Origin: Candidatus Roseilinea sp.
GTDB lineage: Bacteria > Chloroflexota > Anaerolineae > J036 > Brachytrichaceae
DNA: 64,000 bases
Direction: 5' to 3'
Assembly (NCBI GenBank): GCA_026003755.1
Contig: BPHV01000002.1
Coordinates: 1-64,000, forward strand
Below, piece by piece: positions 38,896 through 45,191 of the stretch (positions are counted from its first letter, which is position 1; the number at the start of each line of letters is the position of its first letter). The notes below the pieces were generated by a model, which saw only the letters and a list, made by a program, of their open reading frames with translations, did no database searches and was not told the DNA's origin. The position numbers and the translations under genes are program-made.

Positions 38896-39122
38896 ACATT
38901 CACATCGCCGAAGCGTGTGACGCGCAACGCCCTTTCTGCGTCGCGCCCTGCCACCGAACGTCCCGATGCGCCGATGGCCGCGCTTCGCCGTTGACCCCGA
39001 GAGGGCATTGCCCCGCCGCTCTACAGCAGCCAGGCTTGGGCCGCTTGTCGCCCATGCGCCCGGATGAAGCGTTGGCCTGCTCTTCTCAACGCGCGTTCAG
39101 CGACATGTGCGACAGTTGCGGC

Positions 39123-39722
39123 ATGAAGATCGCCTTGATGGGAGGCGCATTGGCAGCCATGCTGTTGCTCGGCGCGTGCGCTGCTTTTGCGCCCGCACCA
39201 ACACCGGAGCCCACCTTCCCGCCGCGCGCCATTCGTGTTGACTATCCGATCACGCCGCCCGATGTGCCCATGTTGGACCAAGACGGGCGCCCGGCCAAAT
39301 TGAGCAATTTTCGAGGCCGGCTAGTGCTGATTTTCTTCAGCAACATCCGCTGTCGTGAATCCTGTGTCAACGCGCTGCCCCAATTCCAGGCGATTAAGCG
39401 GATGCTCGGACCGCGCAGCGCCGATTTGACCTTCGTCATGGTGGGTGTCGATCGCATTGCCGATGAGCCAAGCGCCCTCAAGCAGCATCTCAGCCGCTAC
39501 GACCCAACGTTCGTCGGGCTGACAGCCGAGCGCAGCGACATGCGCCAGCTCGCGCTGCGTTTCGGCATTCACATGTACGAGAACCGCGATGGCGTGCTCG
39601 CTCCCCACGCGCCGTTCATCTACTTGCTCGACCGGCAAGGCCGCCTGCTCTACTTCGTACAGGACGGCGTGGCGATACCTGAGATTGTCCGAATTGTGAC
39701 CCAGTTGCTCGACGAGAGCTAA
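39123..39722 (+). CDS. SCO1/SenC-family lipoprotein (CRESC variant)
   Basis: 199 residues. Lipoprotein signal peptide with lipobox LLLGAC near residues 13-18. Thioredoxin-like SCO domain: LSNFRGRLVLIFFSNIRCRESCVNAL, TFVMVGVDRIADEPSALKQH, and the copper-binding His in LAPHAPFIYLLD. The Cys pair is CRESC instead of the canonical CPDVC, but the CxxxC spacing is kept. SCO proteins deliver Cu to the CuA site of cytochrome oxidase or act as thiol reductases. Convergent with a second, canonical SCO gene. Confidence 0.85.
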   Translation: MKIALMGGALAAMLLLGACAAFAPAPTPEPTFPPRAIRVDYPITPPDVPMLDQDGRPAKLSNFRGRLVLIFFSNIRCRESCVNALPQFQAIKRMLGPRSADLTFVMVGVDRIADEPSALKQHLSRYDPTFVGLTAERSDMRQLALRFGIHMYENRDGVLAPHAPFIYLLDRQGRLLYFVQDGVAIPEIVRIVTQLLDES

Positions 39723-39741
39723 CACGGGATCGCTCCGTGTT
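39721..39741. terminator. Hairpin shared by the convergent SCO genes
   Basis: AACACGG (39721-39727), 7-base loop, CCGTGTT (39735-39741), spanning both stop codons and followed on the plus strand by ATAACGTTT. Possible bidirectional terminator. Confidence 0.5.
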
Positions 39742-40390
39742 ATAACGTTTCGCGCAACATCGCTTGCACGTCTTGAGCGATGACCTCGACGGGGGTGCCA
39801 AAAGAGTACTTCATCCGCCACTTGCCCTGAGCATCGAGCAGGTAGATGAAGCTGGTATGGGCGACCAGGTAGCTTTCCGGATTGTTGCTCTGCGGCGGCT
39901 GCTTCTCGAATAACCCATCGAACTCGTAGATCAGCTTCTTCAGCATGGCTTCGTCGCCCGTGAGGCCGATGAACGCCGGATCGAAAGCCGTCACGTAGCG
40001 GCGGATGACCTCCGGTGTGTCGCGCTGGGGATCCACTGAGATAAAGACGAAATTGACCTGTTCGCCCGCTTCGCCCAACGCGCGTTTCACCCGGCGCAAG
40101 TCCGCCATGGTCAACGGACAGACGTCCGGGCAGAAGGTGTAGCCAAAGGCGATGAGCGTGGGCTTGCCGCGCAACGCGCTAAGCGGCATTGGCTGATTGT
40201 CCTGATTCGTAAGCACAACGTTGGAAATCGTGCGGTATTGGCCGATAGCAATGCCGCCGGGCGTCGGCGTCGGGATTGGGCCGGTGGCCAGTTGCGGCGC
40301 GTAGCTAAGCAGCAAACCGAAGATGACGATGGCAGCCACGCTGCCCAGCACGCCCAGCAACACCTTAAAACCATCACTGCGGGTGTCCAT
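39740..40390 (-). CDS. SCO1/SenC-family copper chaperone, canonical CPDVC
   Basis: 216 residues. N-terminal membrane anchor VLLGVLGSVAAIVIFGLLLS, then a SCO domain: LIAFGYTFCPDVCPLTMADL (Cu ligands Cys-x3-Cys), FVFISVDPQRDTPEVIRRYV and the His ligand in LVAHTSFIYLLDAQGKWR. ATG 40390 begins MDTRSDGFKVLLG. Lies 74 bases downstream of the PCu(A)C gene on the same strand; known SCO and PCu(A)C proteins cooperate in assembling the CuA centre of cytochrome c oxidase. Confidence 0.93.
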   Translation of the reverse strand: MDTRSDGFKVLLGVLGSVAAIVIFGLLLSYAPQLATGPIPTPTPGGIAIGQYRTISNVVLTNQDNQPMPLSALRGKPTLIAFGYTFCPDVCPLTMADLRRVKRALGEAGEQVNFVFISVDPQRDTPEVIRRYVTAFDPAFIGLTGDEAMLKKLIYEFDGLFEKQPPQSNNPESYLVAHTSFIYLLDAQGKWRMKYSFGTPVEVIAQDVQAMLRETL

Positions 40391-40464
40391 ACGATGCGGA
40401 TATCTTTGCACAAGGAGATGAGAGCGGCGCGAGAGGTCGGTCAACCCCTCGCGCCGCGATGCGC

Positions 40465-40983
40465 TCAGGGTTCGCGCACGGCCACGTCAACGGAGACGGT
40501 CTTGCCCGATTGGAAGGTGAGCGTGAGCTGGAACGCGTCGCCTGGCTTCAGCTCGCGCTTGACGCCCATCAGCATGATGTGATAGCCGGCCGGCCGCAAC
40601 TCCACGCTGCCGTTGGCGGGGATTTCCAAGCCGCCGGCGACTTCTTCCATCATCATCATGCCATCCTTCTCTTTGGTCTGGTGCACCTGGATCATGTCGG
40701 CAATGTCGCCGGATGCCCTGAGCAACTTGTCGGGCGCGTTCCCCTTGTTTTCGATCACCATGTAGGCAGCGCTGTTCACGCCGCTCTTGGCGGTGTCAGT
40801 CTTATCCGAGCTGCCGTGCGAGTGGCCTTCGCCGGCGCTCACCATCCCCATAGTTGGACGCGCCCAGGCGTCTCGAATCGCAATGTCGCTTTGCCCACTT
40901 GTGTTTGGGGCGGGCGTGGCCGGCGCAGCGCAAGCGACGAGCAAGAGCGCCGCAGCGACCGCAAAAATCATCTTCCTGATCAT
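40465..40983 (-). CDS. PCu(A)C periplasmic copper chaperone, lipoprotein
   Basis: 172 residues. Lipoprotein signal peptide (MIRKMIFAVAAALLLVACAA). The PCu(A)C domain keeps the copper motif H-x(10)-M...HxM: IQVHQTKEKDGMMMMEEVAG and PAGYHIMLMGVKRELKPG. An insertion rich in His/Ser/Asp (GEGHSHGSSDKTDTAK) may add metal-binding capacity. ATG 40983 follows AGGAGG by 8 bases. Forms an operon with the SCO gene downstream. Confidence 0.93.
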   Translation of the reverse strand: MIRKMIFAVAAALLLVACAAPATPAPNTSGQSDIAIRDAWARPTMGMVSAGEGHSHGSSDKTDTAKSGVNSAAYMVIENKGNAPDKLLRASGDIADMIQVHQTKEKDGMMMMEEVAGGLEIPANGSVELRPAGYHIMLMGVKRELKPGDAFQLTLTFQSGKTVSVDVAVREP

Positions 40984-41095
40984 CGTTCCATCCTCCTGAA
41001 AGCGCAGCCCATGTTCTGTGTGCAGGCGCGCGAGACGGCTGCGCAACGACACGCGCACCTGAGCCTTTGATTCGAAAGCAACGGTGAACCGGAGC

Positions 41096-41479
41096 TTAGG
41101 CAGCGCGACGAGGAGGCGGCTTGGGGGGTTGCTGCCCTAGGCAGATCGGGGGTGAGACCTTGATAAGCGTCAGGCTTGCCAGGATGCTCAATGCGGCGAG
41201 CCCTGACGACGACGATGGGATGCATTCCGTCACAGCACGGATCAACTGCTGCAGGTCGTCGAGCGGCGCGCCTCCGTCATCAGGTGAAGCACGCTGATGA
41301 TGCAGCGAAGGTGGGTCGCAACGAAAGGGGGTTGCCAGCGCGCGATGATGAACGACATCTACAATCTGGCAGAAGGCGATGCACATCAGCGGCGCTAGCG
41401 CTAACAACGATGCGATGCTCAAGCGCGTCAGCGCAACCCACCCATCGAAGTCAACCTGCGCAGGTGTCCGTTTGATCAT
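41096..41479 (-). CDS. Small two-helix membrane protein of the copper cluster
   Basis: 127 residues. Two hydrophobic segments (LSIASLLALAPLMCIAFCQIV and GLAALSILASLTLIKVS) flank a His-containing loop (VVHHRALATPFRC, SLHHQR); the first ends in a Cys/His-rich stretch CIAFCQIVDVVHH and the tail is PPKPPPRRAA. Not a named family that I recognise; Cys/His content and position upstream of the PCu(A)C gene suggest a metal-related role. The start ATG 41479 lies 38 bases from the edge of the insertion sequence, which may have replaced its promoter. Confidence 0.6.
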   Translation of the reverse strand: MIKRTPAQVDFDGWVALTRLSIASLLALAPLMCIAFCQIVDVVHHRALATPFRCDPPSLHHQRASPDDGGAPLDDLQQLIRAVTECIPSSSSGLAALSILASLTLIKVSPPICLGQQPPKPPPRRAA

Positions 41480-41509
41480 ACGATCCGTGCACGTGCAAAG
41501 CAATTATCC

Positions 41510-41539: not shown

Positions 41540-41700
41540 AGGAGCGCACTCAAAAAGCGCGCAGATTGACCTCGCCCGCGTGAACATCCGAAGATCACGG
41601 ACGTCGTCGTGGATTGACAGACCGGCATCTCAGCGAGGGACGACAAGCCGCAGGCCGCTGCGGGCATAATGCGAGGACAGTTATATCCGGGAGGTGTGCC

Positions 41701-43090
41701 ATGAAAGAGACCAGGGCGACGACACAGCGCAAGTCAGCGTCTTCGCCACGGCGAGGCGAGATGAAAGCGGTGCTGATGCGAGAAGCGGAGGCCGTGATCG
41801 ATGAATTGCTGGACTGGAATGAACAGGCCGGCCAGCCGACGCTGACGCAGATCGAGGAGGTGATCCTGAAGCTGCGCAAGCGGATGAGCGAGGCGATGGC
41901 GGTCACCGTGATCGAGGCGCAAGAGGCGAGCCGCCCGGTGCCGGGGCCGGTCTGTCCGCAGTGCGGGCGGGAGATGCACTCCAAAGGCCGCAAGCGGAAC
42001 ACGGTCGAGAGCCGCGTGGGCAGCCTGTCCGTGCAGCGAGGATACTACTACTGTGAAGCCTGCCGCGTCGGGCTTTTCCCCCCTCGATCGGCAGCTGGCG
42101 GTGTGGGACAAGCACTGGAGCGAACAGGTGGCCAAGCAGGCGGTGTGGCTGAGCGGGCTGGTGACGTTTGAGGAAGCGGAGCGCATCCTGGGACAGGTGG
42201 GCGGGCTGGTCATGTCCGACAGCAGTGTGTGGCGGCGGGTGGCGGTATGGGGAGAGCGCTTTCGGGGGGTAGAAGCCACACAACGCGCCCTGGCGGACGG
42301 CGGCGGGCGCACCGCCGAGGCGGCGACCGTGCCGGGCAAGATGGGTGTCGCCCTGGACGGAGCAACGGTTCATGTGCGTGGCGAAGGCTGGAAGGAACTC
42401 AAGGTGGGGTGCGTGTTCGATGTCGTGCTACAGCCGACTTGGGATCGCCAGAGCGAGGAGTGGGTTGACACGGCCCACGCCGTCCGCGCCGGCTACGTCG
42501 CCCATCTGGGCGGGCCGGAACGGTTCGGCCAGGTGTTGTGGACGGCCGCCCAACGTCGCGGCTGGACGCAGGCACGTGACACCATCGCCTTGGGCGATGG
42601 CGCCGCGTGGATTTGGAATCTGCTCAGCGAGCACTTCTACGACAGCCGACAAGCCGTGGACTGGTATCACGCCAGCCAGCATCTGTGGCAGGTTGCTCAC
42701 GGCCTGCACGCAGCAGGCAGCCCGGCGGCCCAGGCTTGGTATCGTGCCCACGAAACCCTCTTGTTCCAGGGCCATGCCGACCGGATTGCGGCTCGACTCC
42801 GTCAGGCCGCCCATACCCATCCCCAGCACGCCGAGATGCTACGGCGTGAAGCGGGCTACTTCGGGAACAACCGGCGACGCATGCAATACCAGAGCCTGCG
42901 CGAAGATGGCTGGCCGATCGGCAGCGGCGTGGTCGAGAGCGCCTGCAAGCAATTCCGTCATCGCTTCGCCGGTAGCGGGATGCGCTGGAGCCGTCCCGGC
43001 ATCGAGCGTCTGCTCCCGATTCGGGCGGCCGTCATGGGTCACGCCTTTGACGCGATGTGGTCTGCTGCCTATTCTTCGCCCCCAAACTGA
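41701..43090 (+). CDS. ISKra4-family transposase (frameshifted at a C run, 42078-42083)
   Basis: About 462 residues after repair. The N-terminal part has a helical region and zinc-binding pairs (VCPQCGREMHSKGRKRNT and YYYCEACRVGL). The catalytic part has the DDE-type core: first Asp in MGVALDGATVHVRGEGWKEL, second in DTIALGDGAAWIWNLLSEHF / AVDWYHASQHLW, and Glu in GSGVVESACKQFRHRF. The two frames join at TTTT followed by six C; with five C the protein reads GLFPLDRQLAVWDKHW without a break. Either an indel or, as proposed for some ISKra4 members, programmed frameshifting. ATG 41701 follows GGGAGGTG; CATAAT at 41665-41670 is a possible -10. Confidence 0.88.
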
Positions 43091-43107: not shown

Positions 43108-43518
43108 TCGGCGAGCGGTCGTTTGAGGTGCATTTCAAGCTGGGGATGGTAGGCCTGCCGGAAGCGACTGCGGGGGCCAAGATCGGCGCAGCGTGCCGGT
43201 ATCGTGGATGTTCCTCCGAACAATCCGGTCTATCTCGACGGCGAGCCGCGCAAGTGCTGCTACCTGTGCCGCCACATGACCGACGAGCCGACATGGACGC
43301 TGCGTTCCTCGGGGGTGCGCTTGTCCCGCAATTGCTCGGCTTGCCAATCCTCGAAGGTGCGATAGGCGCGCGGTTGAGCGGGGTTCAGCTACACGAATGC
43401 ACCCGGCGGGTCCGCGTGCCCGCTCGCATTTGGCGAGCATGGTTGGGGCGCATGGCTTAGCTACAGAAGGCAAGCACGTGGCGGCCCTTACCCAGGCGCG
43501 CGTCGGTGCCCGTGCTCT
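43108..43518. other. Mostly non-coding region right of the IS
   Basis: About 410 bases between the IS and the Tat lipoprotein gene. It holds only the doubtful 53-residue Cys-rich frame at 43204-43365. Before IS insertion it was continuous with 41480-41509. I see no RNA gene or hairpin here. Confidence 0.4.
43204..43365 (+). CDS. Doubtful small Cys-rich (zinc-ribbon-like) ORF
   Basis: 53 residues from GTG 43204. It has two Cys pairs, CYLCRHM and NCSACQ, about 22 residues apart, as in zinc ribbons, preceded by VPPNNPVYLDGEPRK. There is no good ribosome site. Could be a fragment of a larger gene or chance. Confidence 0.25.
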   Translation: MDVPPNNPVYLDGEPRKCCYLCRHMTDEPTWTLRSSGVRLSRNCSACQSSKVR

Positions 43519-43998
43519 CTATGTTCCAGGCGGGGGCTGCACAAAGAAAGTGACGCTCACCGGCGCCGGTATGGGTAGTTTGGCATGCAGGCCGTCGGCC
43601 ATCACCGCTGTGATGGTGTGGACGCCGGGCGAAAGCGTGAGCGTGCGCGTGGCAAACGGCGGCGCGCCCATGTGCACGTATTTGTCGGTTTGATCGAGCG
43701 GGATGATTTGGCCATCGGCAATCGCGCTGGCCGGCACGTCAATAAACAGGTGGAGATGACCTTCGCCCGGTCGGGGCGGGCCCGGCCGCACGAGCCGGAA
43801 GTTGCGCACTTCTACCTGAATCGGCACCTTCGCTTCAGGCACACGCACGCCTGGCTGGGGATATACGATGCGCATGCTGGGCTCGCGCGAAGCCGGCGCG
43901 CATGCCGCCAGCACACCGCCCACGCCAATGCTCAGGGTGATGCTTGCTGCGCGAATGAACCTACGTCGAGATAAGGTCAAACTTCGTTCAAACTTCAT
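43519..43998 (-). CDS. Tat-exported lipoprotein, DUF4399-like
   Basis: 159 residues. N-terminal twin-arginine signal (LTLSRRRFIRAASITL) followed by a lipobox (GVLAAC), so exported folded and lipid-anchored. The mature part has VRVPEAKVPIQVEVRNFRLV, GEGHLHLFIDVP, KYVHMGAPPFATRTLTLSPG and VHTITAVMADGLHAKL, a beta-sandwich pattern like DUF4399. His residues (GHLHLF, YVHMG) could bind metal. ATG 43998 follows GGGAGGA by 7 bases. Divergent from the thioredoxin-like gene. Confidence 0.72.
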   Translation of the reverse strand: MKFERSLTLSRRRFIRAASITLSIGVGGVLAACAPASREPSMRIVYPQPGVRVPEAKVPIQVEVRNFRLVRPGPPRPGEGHLHLFIDVPASAIADGQIIPLDQTDKYVHMGAPPFATRTLTLSPGVHTITAVMADGLHAKLPIPAPVSVTFFVQPPPGT

Positions 43999-44163
43999 GG
44001 TCAATCCTCCCATCCGGTATGTCGAACTCACCTCACGGCCGTTTTGTGCGCAGCGATGCAGGGGAATTATAGAGGCATGCTTTTGCCGACGCATTCTCAG
44101 CGAGTTGTAATCCTCACGCCCTACGATCCAGCGTATATTTTGGTGAGGAGAATTTCAGAAACG

Positions 44164-44601
44164 ATGATACCAACGTCCCGTATGATGGCCGCAGCGGTCA
44201 TGGCGGCTGCGATGATCACGCTGACGGCATGTGGCTCGCCCCGAGCGACGCCGACAGCAACGCCGGTTGCTTCAACTGCCGCCCCCGTCGTAGCGCCAAT
44301 CGAACCAATCGAAATTGATCGTCCGCTGTTCATTGACTTCTACGCGCCGTGGTGAGGATCATGTATGTCCATGAAGCCTGTCGTGAACAGGCTCGAAAAG
44401 GAATTCGGCGAGCGGGTGGAATTCAGATCGCTGAACATTGACGAAGCCAGCTCCAAAGAGGCGATGGCGAAATACAAGTTCGTCGGTCAACCCCAGTTCG
44501 TCATCGTCGCCCCGAATGGCGAGGTGGTAGCTTCGCGCAACGGCATTCAGACCTACGACCGATTGAAAGCCGATATCGAAGCCGCTTTAGCCAAGCGATA
44601 A
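44164..44601 (+). CDS. Thioredoxin-like lipoprotein with in-frame TGA at the redox Cys: candidate selenoprotein (UxxC)
   Basis: 145 residues if TGA 44353-44355 is read through. Signal peptide with lipobox (AMITLTAC, Cys near 20), an Ala/Pro/Thr linker, then a thioredoxin fold: RPLFIDFYAPW, TGA, GSCMSMKPVVNRLEKEF, VEFRSLNIDE, YKFVGQPQFVIVAPNGEVV (cis-Pro region). Thioredoxins have WCxxC here, so TGA replaces the first redox Cys (residue 64), with the second Cys kept at 67. Nothing else disturbs the frame. A 7-bp hairpin starts 19 bases after the TGA. Alternatives: nonsense mutation, a sequence error, or two separate ORFs (a GAGGA lies before ATG 44365, but that product would lack the active site). 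No sel genes are in the window. GAGGAG precedes ATG 44164; TATATT (44134-44139) is a possible -10. Confidence 0.7.
44375..44393 (+). promoter_or_regulatory. Candidate bacterial SECIS hairpin
   Basis: AGCCTGT (44375-44381), loop CGTGA, ACAGGCT (44387-44393): a perfect 7-bp stem. The apical loop begins 26 bases after the TGA and has G among its first two bases, in line with published bacterial SECIS rules (loop 16-37 bases downstream, short stem, G near the loop start). Confidence 0.55.
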
Positions 44602-44614
44602 GCGCAGCAAAATC

Positions 44615-44654
44615 AATCGCCCTCTGTTCCCCTTCGATGCAGCAGAGGGCGATT
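44615..44654. terminator. Bidirectional terminator between thioredoxin-like gene and Uma2 gene
   Basis: A perfect 12-bp stem AATCGCCCTCTG (44615-44626) / CAGAGGGCGATT (44643-44654), 16-base loop, followed by TCATTCC on the plus strand and GATTTTG on the minus strand. Confidence 0.7.
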
Positions 44655-45191
44655 TCATTCCTCGGTCTCCACGATTCCCCACCACTCCATGAGCTTGAGC
44701 AAGCCTGGTTGTTTGTGAAACCACTCTACCGGGAAGGCTAACTGCACAATGGCTGCAGAGTAGTGTAGGCCGCCTTTGTCTGGCGGGATCAGATCGTAGT
44801 GCCAATTCGCATCGGCCTGATAGCAAAATCCGCGCCCCTTGTCGGCCTCGATCTGCCAGTATTCCAGCACATGCGCAGCAGCGTAGCGTCGCCGGAGCAT
44901 GGCGCGCTCATCCTCGCTCACGCCGCTGTGCAGCACGTCTATGGCCAGTGCCGGGGGGCCGTAGATCGCATCGGCCTTGACGGATTTGCGCTCGCTGTTC
45001 GGCACGTAAAGCACGTCCGGCATCAGCACTTCGTCGCCCACGACGACGCGCGCGCCTTTACCTATCACTGCACCCAATTCGTACGCCTCGACAACGACGG
45101 TGAGCAAGGTGACCAGCCATGCTTGCAGCTTGGCTTGCAGGACGCTGTAGGGTGAGGAGGACACGGGTGTAAAACGTGCAACGTAAATCAT
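44655..45191 (-). CDS. Uma2-family (DUF820) endonuclease-fold protein
   Basis: 178 residues. The PD-(D/E)XK-like core pattern of Uma2 is visible: VLMPDVLYVPNSER, YGPPALAIDVLHSGVSEDER, RRRYAAAHVLEYWQIEAD. These proteins are numerous in Chloroflexota and Cyanobacteria and their role is unknown. ATG 45191 sits directly after a 7-bp repeat tract that fills the gap to the upstream gene. Downstream is a strong bidirectional terminator. Confidence 0.78.
   Translation of the reverse strand: MIYVARFTPVSSSPYSVLQAKLQAWLVTLLTVVVEAYELGAVIGKGARVVVGDEVLMPDVLYVPNSERKSVKADAIYGPPALAIDVLHSGVSEDERAMLRRRYAAAHVLEYWQIEADKGRGFCYQADANWHYDLIPPDKGGLHYSAAIVQLAFPVEWFHKQPGLLKLMEWWGIVETEE

Follow-up and report, generated by a model that had tools for sequence, protein, structure and literature searches.

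An in-frame UGA in a thioredoxin-fold lipoprotein gene of a Candidatus Roseilinea relative as a probable selenocysteine codon

The stretch of DNA analyzed here (the window, 64,000 nucleotides, G000:C2:1-64000) carries a gene that very probably encodes an exported thioredoxin-fold lipoprotein with a UxxC active site, in which UGA would be decoded as selenocysteine (Sec) by SelB and tRNA-Sec(UCA) by means of a downstream hairpin. From sequence comparison, the probability of this reading is estimated at about 95%. The genome, G000 (3.34 Mb, 95% complete), is closest among named organisms to Ca. Roseilinea (Chloroflexota, Anaerolineae; loci L051 and L055). Features of the gene are listed below.

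44164..44601, + strand: candidate Sec-thioredoxin lipoprotein gene with TGA taken as Sec, 145 codons plus stop
44164..44232, + strand: signal peptide with lipobox LTA-C, Cys23 codon at 44230-44232, read by eye
44353..44355, + strand: putative Sec codon UGA, opening the UxxC motif (U64-G-S-C67), from alignment
44362..44364, + strand: predicted resolving Cys67 of UxxC, a Cys that is invariant in alignment A1
44375..44393, + strand: predicted bacterial SECIS hairpin with 7-bp stem and CGUGA loop, from folding and conservation
44491..44493, + strand: Pro110 at the predicted thioredoxin cis-Pro position, invariant in the alignment

The frame from 44164 to 44601 contains a single internal stop, the TGA at 44353-44355, which stands at the first Cys of the thioredoxin WCxxC motif (APW-U-GSC). 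Translated with this codon read through, the protein has 145 residues, MIPTSRMMAAAVMAAAMITLTAC...FYAPW-U-GSCMSMKPVVNRL... The claim of the earlier sequence-only reading that this TGA is the sole break in the frame and falls on the first redox Cys is borne out, with the thioredoxin frame intact downstream. Pfam assigns residues 52-139 to PF00085 Thioredoxin (E=1.8e-15; 57.2 bits against a gathering score of 23.5), and PF13098 barely passes its cut-off (29.3 bits against 27); in an NCBIfam search of the protein no model exceeded its cut-off. The AlphaFold2 model shows a thioredoxin fold with high confidence from about residue 55 onward, in which UxxC opens the first active-site helix (residues 65-69), and the solved structures that ranked best against this model are thioredoxins. 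Residues 1-50 have low pLDDT. By eye, LTAC at residues 20-23 satisfies the lipobox rule [LVI][ASTVI][GAS]C, and a similar LxAC is present in many of the aligned orthologues; a disordered, low-complexity linker rich in Pro, Thr and Ala follows Cys23.

The sequence-only reading had proposed searching the genome for selA, selB, selC (tRNA-Sec) and selD, and all are present, so that G000 encodes a complete Sec set. Profile searches gave 322 bits for selB (cut-off 242), 515 bits for selA and 364 bits for selD, and the tRNA-Sec scored 73.1 bits against 47, with anticodon tca (UCA). The selD gene (L019 1501-2436; G000:C2:624452-625387) may itself encode a selenoprotein, since an in-frame TGA lies close to its N-terminus in a CAGU context.

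We searched 99 related genomes; the family counts 28 genomes. All nine members of the genus that were searched have TGA at the equivalent codon, and the column at codon 64 holds TGA or Cys, and no third residue, among the family orthologues, as the selenoprotein proposal had implied. Eighteen family genomes carry TGA (G000-G009, G011, G012, G015, G016, G018, G021, G024 and G025). Both tRNA-Sec and selB are found in 18/18 of them; selA was not found in G021, and in G018 (67% complete) selA and selB are present as fragments only. The orthologue has Cys in four family genomes (G010, G013, G020 and G022), and selA, selB and tRNA-Sec are all missing from these four despite a completeness of 92-97%. 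The resulting 2x2 table (18:0 / 0:4) gives a Fisher p of 1/7315, approximately 1.4e-4, for genomes that are related rather than independent. On the protein tree three changes of the Sec/Cys label are required, and well-supported branches force at least two. The family provides a clean natural experiment, in which the switch from Sec to Cys coincides with the loss of the whole Sec machinery. Two further genomes, G019 and G023, possess selB and tRNA-Sec alongside a Cys homologue of only 39% identity, which we treated as a paralogue or a diverged lineage. Were these true orthologues, the rule would soften to TGA only with Sec machinery, and Cys mostly without it.

The hairpin consists of a stem AGCCTGT/ACAGGCT at 44375-44381 and 44387-44393 and a loop CGTGA at 44382-44386. 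Its stem is a perfect 7 bp, it begins 19 nt past the TGA with the loop at 26 nt, and its folding energy is -9.2 kcal/mol, the geometry matching what the sequence-only reading had described. Published rules for bacterial SECIS elements call for a loop of 3-9 nt, a stem of 4-16 bp, an MFE of at most -7.5, a G within the first two loop positions and a distance of 16-37 nt from the UGA (PMC13188914), and the hairpin passes all of them. The earlier description placed G in both of the first two loop positions; only the second is G (C-G-U-G-A), which still satisfies the rule. An Rfam scan of 43500-45000 gave no match to any SECIS family. Of the 1,854 TGA trinucleotides in the window, 130 (7%) precede a rule-meeting hairpin with a stem of at least 7 bp. 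Because such hairpins arise this often by chance, the hairpin alone is weak evidence, and it was rejected as proof by itself.

Comparison across the class is more informative. Searching 396 genomes yielded 70 distinct TGA-bearing genes, 55 with UxxC and 15 with UxxU, after exclusion of three mis-hits of the automatic motif calls (L114, L127 and L129) and of L119, a duplicate of L048. At one fixed offset, at least 6 of the 7 pairs form in 66/70 genes. The mean over the 70 genes is 6.40 pairs, against 4.64 +/- 0.11 under synonymous recoding, a null that corrects only roughly for conservation imposed by the protein, and slid registers give means of 1.1-4.4 pairs. The stem coincides with conserved codons (MKPVVxRL), so its conservation is partly protein-driven. 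Covariation is seen at two positions. The wobble base of the Pro codon, which the protein leaves free, pairs with position 1 of the codon four further on (T-A 23, C-G 40, G-C 4), with mismatches in 0/67. Pair 6 joins codon 10 (GTC/ATC, with the TGA numbered codon 1) to the third base of codon 12, and the two covary: G-C in 29, A-T in 38 and G-T in 1 of 68 genes. This comparative test strongly supports the assignment of the hairpin as a putative SECIS; the SECIS-like element first proposed from the window sequence obeys the bacterial rules and shows covarying conservation across the class.

Among the Cys versions, 4/9 retain at least 6 pairs. The stem is broken in the Cys orthologues L031 and L035 and the loop is altered in L033. 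Since the Cys paralogues L045 and L070 keep 5-6 pairs, the hairpin alone cannot define Sec genes. A near-complete SECIS hairpin is still there in L032, the Cys orthologue of G020, which is without selA, selB and tRNA-Sec; because its sister species G015 and G024 carry TGA, this hairpin is likely to be a relic of recent Sec loss.

Taken together, these observations suggest how the protein would be made and used. SelB and tRNA-Sec(UCA) would decode the UGA at 44353 as selenocysteine, directed by the hairpin at 44375-44393, which lies inside the coding sequence just 3' of the UGA. The lipoprotein signal peptide would lead to export and Cys23 would serve as the lipid anchor; going by the lipobox, the protein would sit outside the cytoplasmic membrane. 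As fold, motif and lipobox suggest, the thioredoxin domain would be held at the outer face of that membrane, where Sec64 may attack disulfides or oxidized thiols and Cys67 may resolve the selenenylsulfide. Electrons would probably be supplied by a membrane thiol transporter of the DsbD/CcdA type, and a DsbD_TM gene (CcdA-like) is present in G000 (C1:722049-722576). The copper-delivery proteins of heme-copper oxidases, SCO1 and PCuAC, are possible partners, since their genes are neighbors in the genus, but this link is weak.

The neighborhood bears on whether the main role of the selenoprotein would be to handle copper, or to help SCO1/PCuAC assemble heme-copper oxidases, instead of general envelope thiol reduction; we consider such a copper role rather unlikely. 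Two SCO1/SenC genes and one PCuAC gene occupy 38991-41058 of the window, in an order common to several genus genomes. The full order in the genus is two SCO1-like genes, PCuAC, a small ORF (41096-41503 in the window), DUF4399, the Sec-thioredoxin gene, Uma2 and two ORFs labeled GNAT-like by eye. PCuAC stays near the Sec-thioredoxin gene, within contig reach, in G001, G002, G003, G006 and G007. This retained order, together with the possession of heme-copper O2 reductases by Roseilinea (PMC8446752), favors a copper role. On the other hand, no copper genes were found near the thioredoxin gene in G004, and none of the other genera examined in the family keeps any of these neighbors; the copper genes of the window also lie on the opposite strand. 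With no such neighborhood found in G004 or in the other genera examined, the copper link was given no weight, and copper-cluster synteny was rejected as a functional clue since its conservation is confined to the genus. The sequence-only reading had placed the gene next to copper-chaperone genes: PCuAC and SCO1 genes do lie upstream, but approximately 3-5 kb away, with a transposase and the DUF4399 gene intervening.

Between PCuAC and the DUF4399 gene, positions 41614-43090 hold transposase-like ORFs that overlap in two frames, with a weak UPF0236 match for the second, and that are likely an insertion element. The PCuAC-DUF4399 spacing is approximately 2.0 kb in the window and approximately 1.25 kb in G007. 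A survey of neighbors in other genera revealed no constant partner gene. By eye, a CcdA-like protein is encoded near the Sec-thioredoxin gene at L149, while in G012, G015 and G016 the gene is followed by one for a Tat-type exported protein.

Other readings concern the codon itself. Ordinary-code ORF calling breaks the gene into ORFs 44044-44355 and 44365-44601, and the TGA could accordingly be a true stop, leaving either a pseudogene or a truncated lipoprotein followed by a C-terminal ORF re-initiated at ATG 44365. This is very improbable: neither half contains a complete active site, the TGA is kept at the exact codon in the 9 genus members and 18 family genomes with the downstream frame conserved, and it alternates with Cys alone, the Cys coinciding with loss of the Sec machinery. 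Decoding of UGA as another residue, through a reassignment like that of codes 4/25 or through Trp or Gly read-through, found no supporting evidence and is contradicted by the full Sec machinery of G000, by the Cys of TGA-less orthologues and by the SECIS covariation, which makes it exceedingly improbable. A sequencing or assembly error, with TGC or TGT misread as TGA, can be practically dismissed, given the same TGA in other assemblies, including the single-contig G007. The selenoprotein proposal is supported, each observation looked for that could have told against it having failed to do so.

The class search also revealed relatives in which both redox Cys are replaced by in-frame TGA (UxxU). 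These thioredoxin-like proteins occur in 15 Anaerolineae genomes, four of them of this genus (loci L059-L065, L120-L126 and L128; L061 is G007:C1:3359403-3359780), and were not found in G000. Several have a lipobox, and Pfam assigned PF00085 in 2/2 tested. Their two UGAs lie nine bases apart and are followed by a single SECIS-like hairpin whose loop is 26 and 17 nt away, both distances falling within the permitted 16-37 nt; the four Roseilinea-genus copies have a mismatch or bulge in the stem. It is reasonably likely that the Anaerolineae harbor a widespread clade of exported Sec-thioredoxins, with UxxU in many lineages and one SECIS for two UGAs, of which the window gene would be the UxxC form. 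The 2026 inventory of 119 families gives UxxU for other families only and not for PF00085 thioredoxin (PMC13188914). These cousins offer a test of whether one bacterial SECIS serves two UGAs nine bases apart. In L068 (G025:C153) and L069 (G009:C408), an open frame of approximately 550 residues ends in a C-terminal WUEAC thioredoxin domain with a SECIS-like hairpin, likely a fusion selenoprotein.

The sequence-only reading had called an exported, lipid-anchored UxxC thioredoxin beside copper-chaperone genes unusual. This needs tempering, as selenoproteins of the UxxC thioredoxin type already form an established family and the copper neighborhood is limited to the genus. "Thioredoxin, PF00085, UxxC" is listed as an experimentally verified selenoprotein family (PMC13188914, Table 1), and the same inventory contains several further UxxC thioredoxin-fold selenoproteins and cites experiments on the reduction of disulfides by UxxC thioredoxins, in which Sec makes the attack. 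The terms "lipoprotein" and "Chloroflexota" are unmentioned in this inventory and in a 2022 review, "Chloroflexi" is also absent from the latter, and the paper on the Roseilinea genome says nothing of selenoproteins (PMC8446752). A 2006 survey, in the portion of its text available, reports three selenoproteins in Chloroflexi and does not tie thioredoxin to them. The present candidate would place an exported selenoprotein of thioredoxin type in a lineage of Chloroflexota that the literature searched does not describe as using Sec.

The window protein resembles the verified PF00085 UxxC family in its domain, in Sec at the first redox position, in a SECIS directly downstream and in the Cys homologues of Sec-less species, and differs from it in the lipoprotein signal peptide and linker ahead of the domain. 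From canonical thioredoxin it is set apart by a score well under the equivalog cut-off (TIGR01068; 59.3 bits, far below 96.8). Thioredoxin-fold proteins of the PF13098, cd02966 and DsbG-like classes often work outside the cytoplasm. With the predicted UxxC redoxins of these classes (PF13098 thiol:disulfide interchange, cd02966 isomerase-like and DsbG-like) the protein shares the UxxC motif but not the subfamily, its best Pfam match being PF00085. Like the ResA/TlpA/DsbE thioredoxins, it would be a membrane-anchored fold outside the cytoplasm with a possible CcdA/DsbD electron supply; its match to them is weak (E 2e-5 to 2e-3, far under the cut-offs), its anchor would be a lipid instead of a transmembrane helix, and Sec would replace Cys. 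UxxC thioredoxin selenoproteins are already known, and the product of the window gene would join them as a predicted exported lipoprotein.
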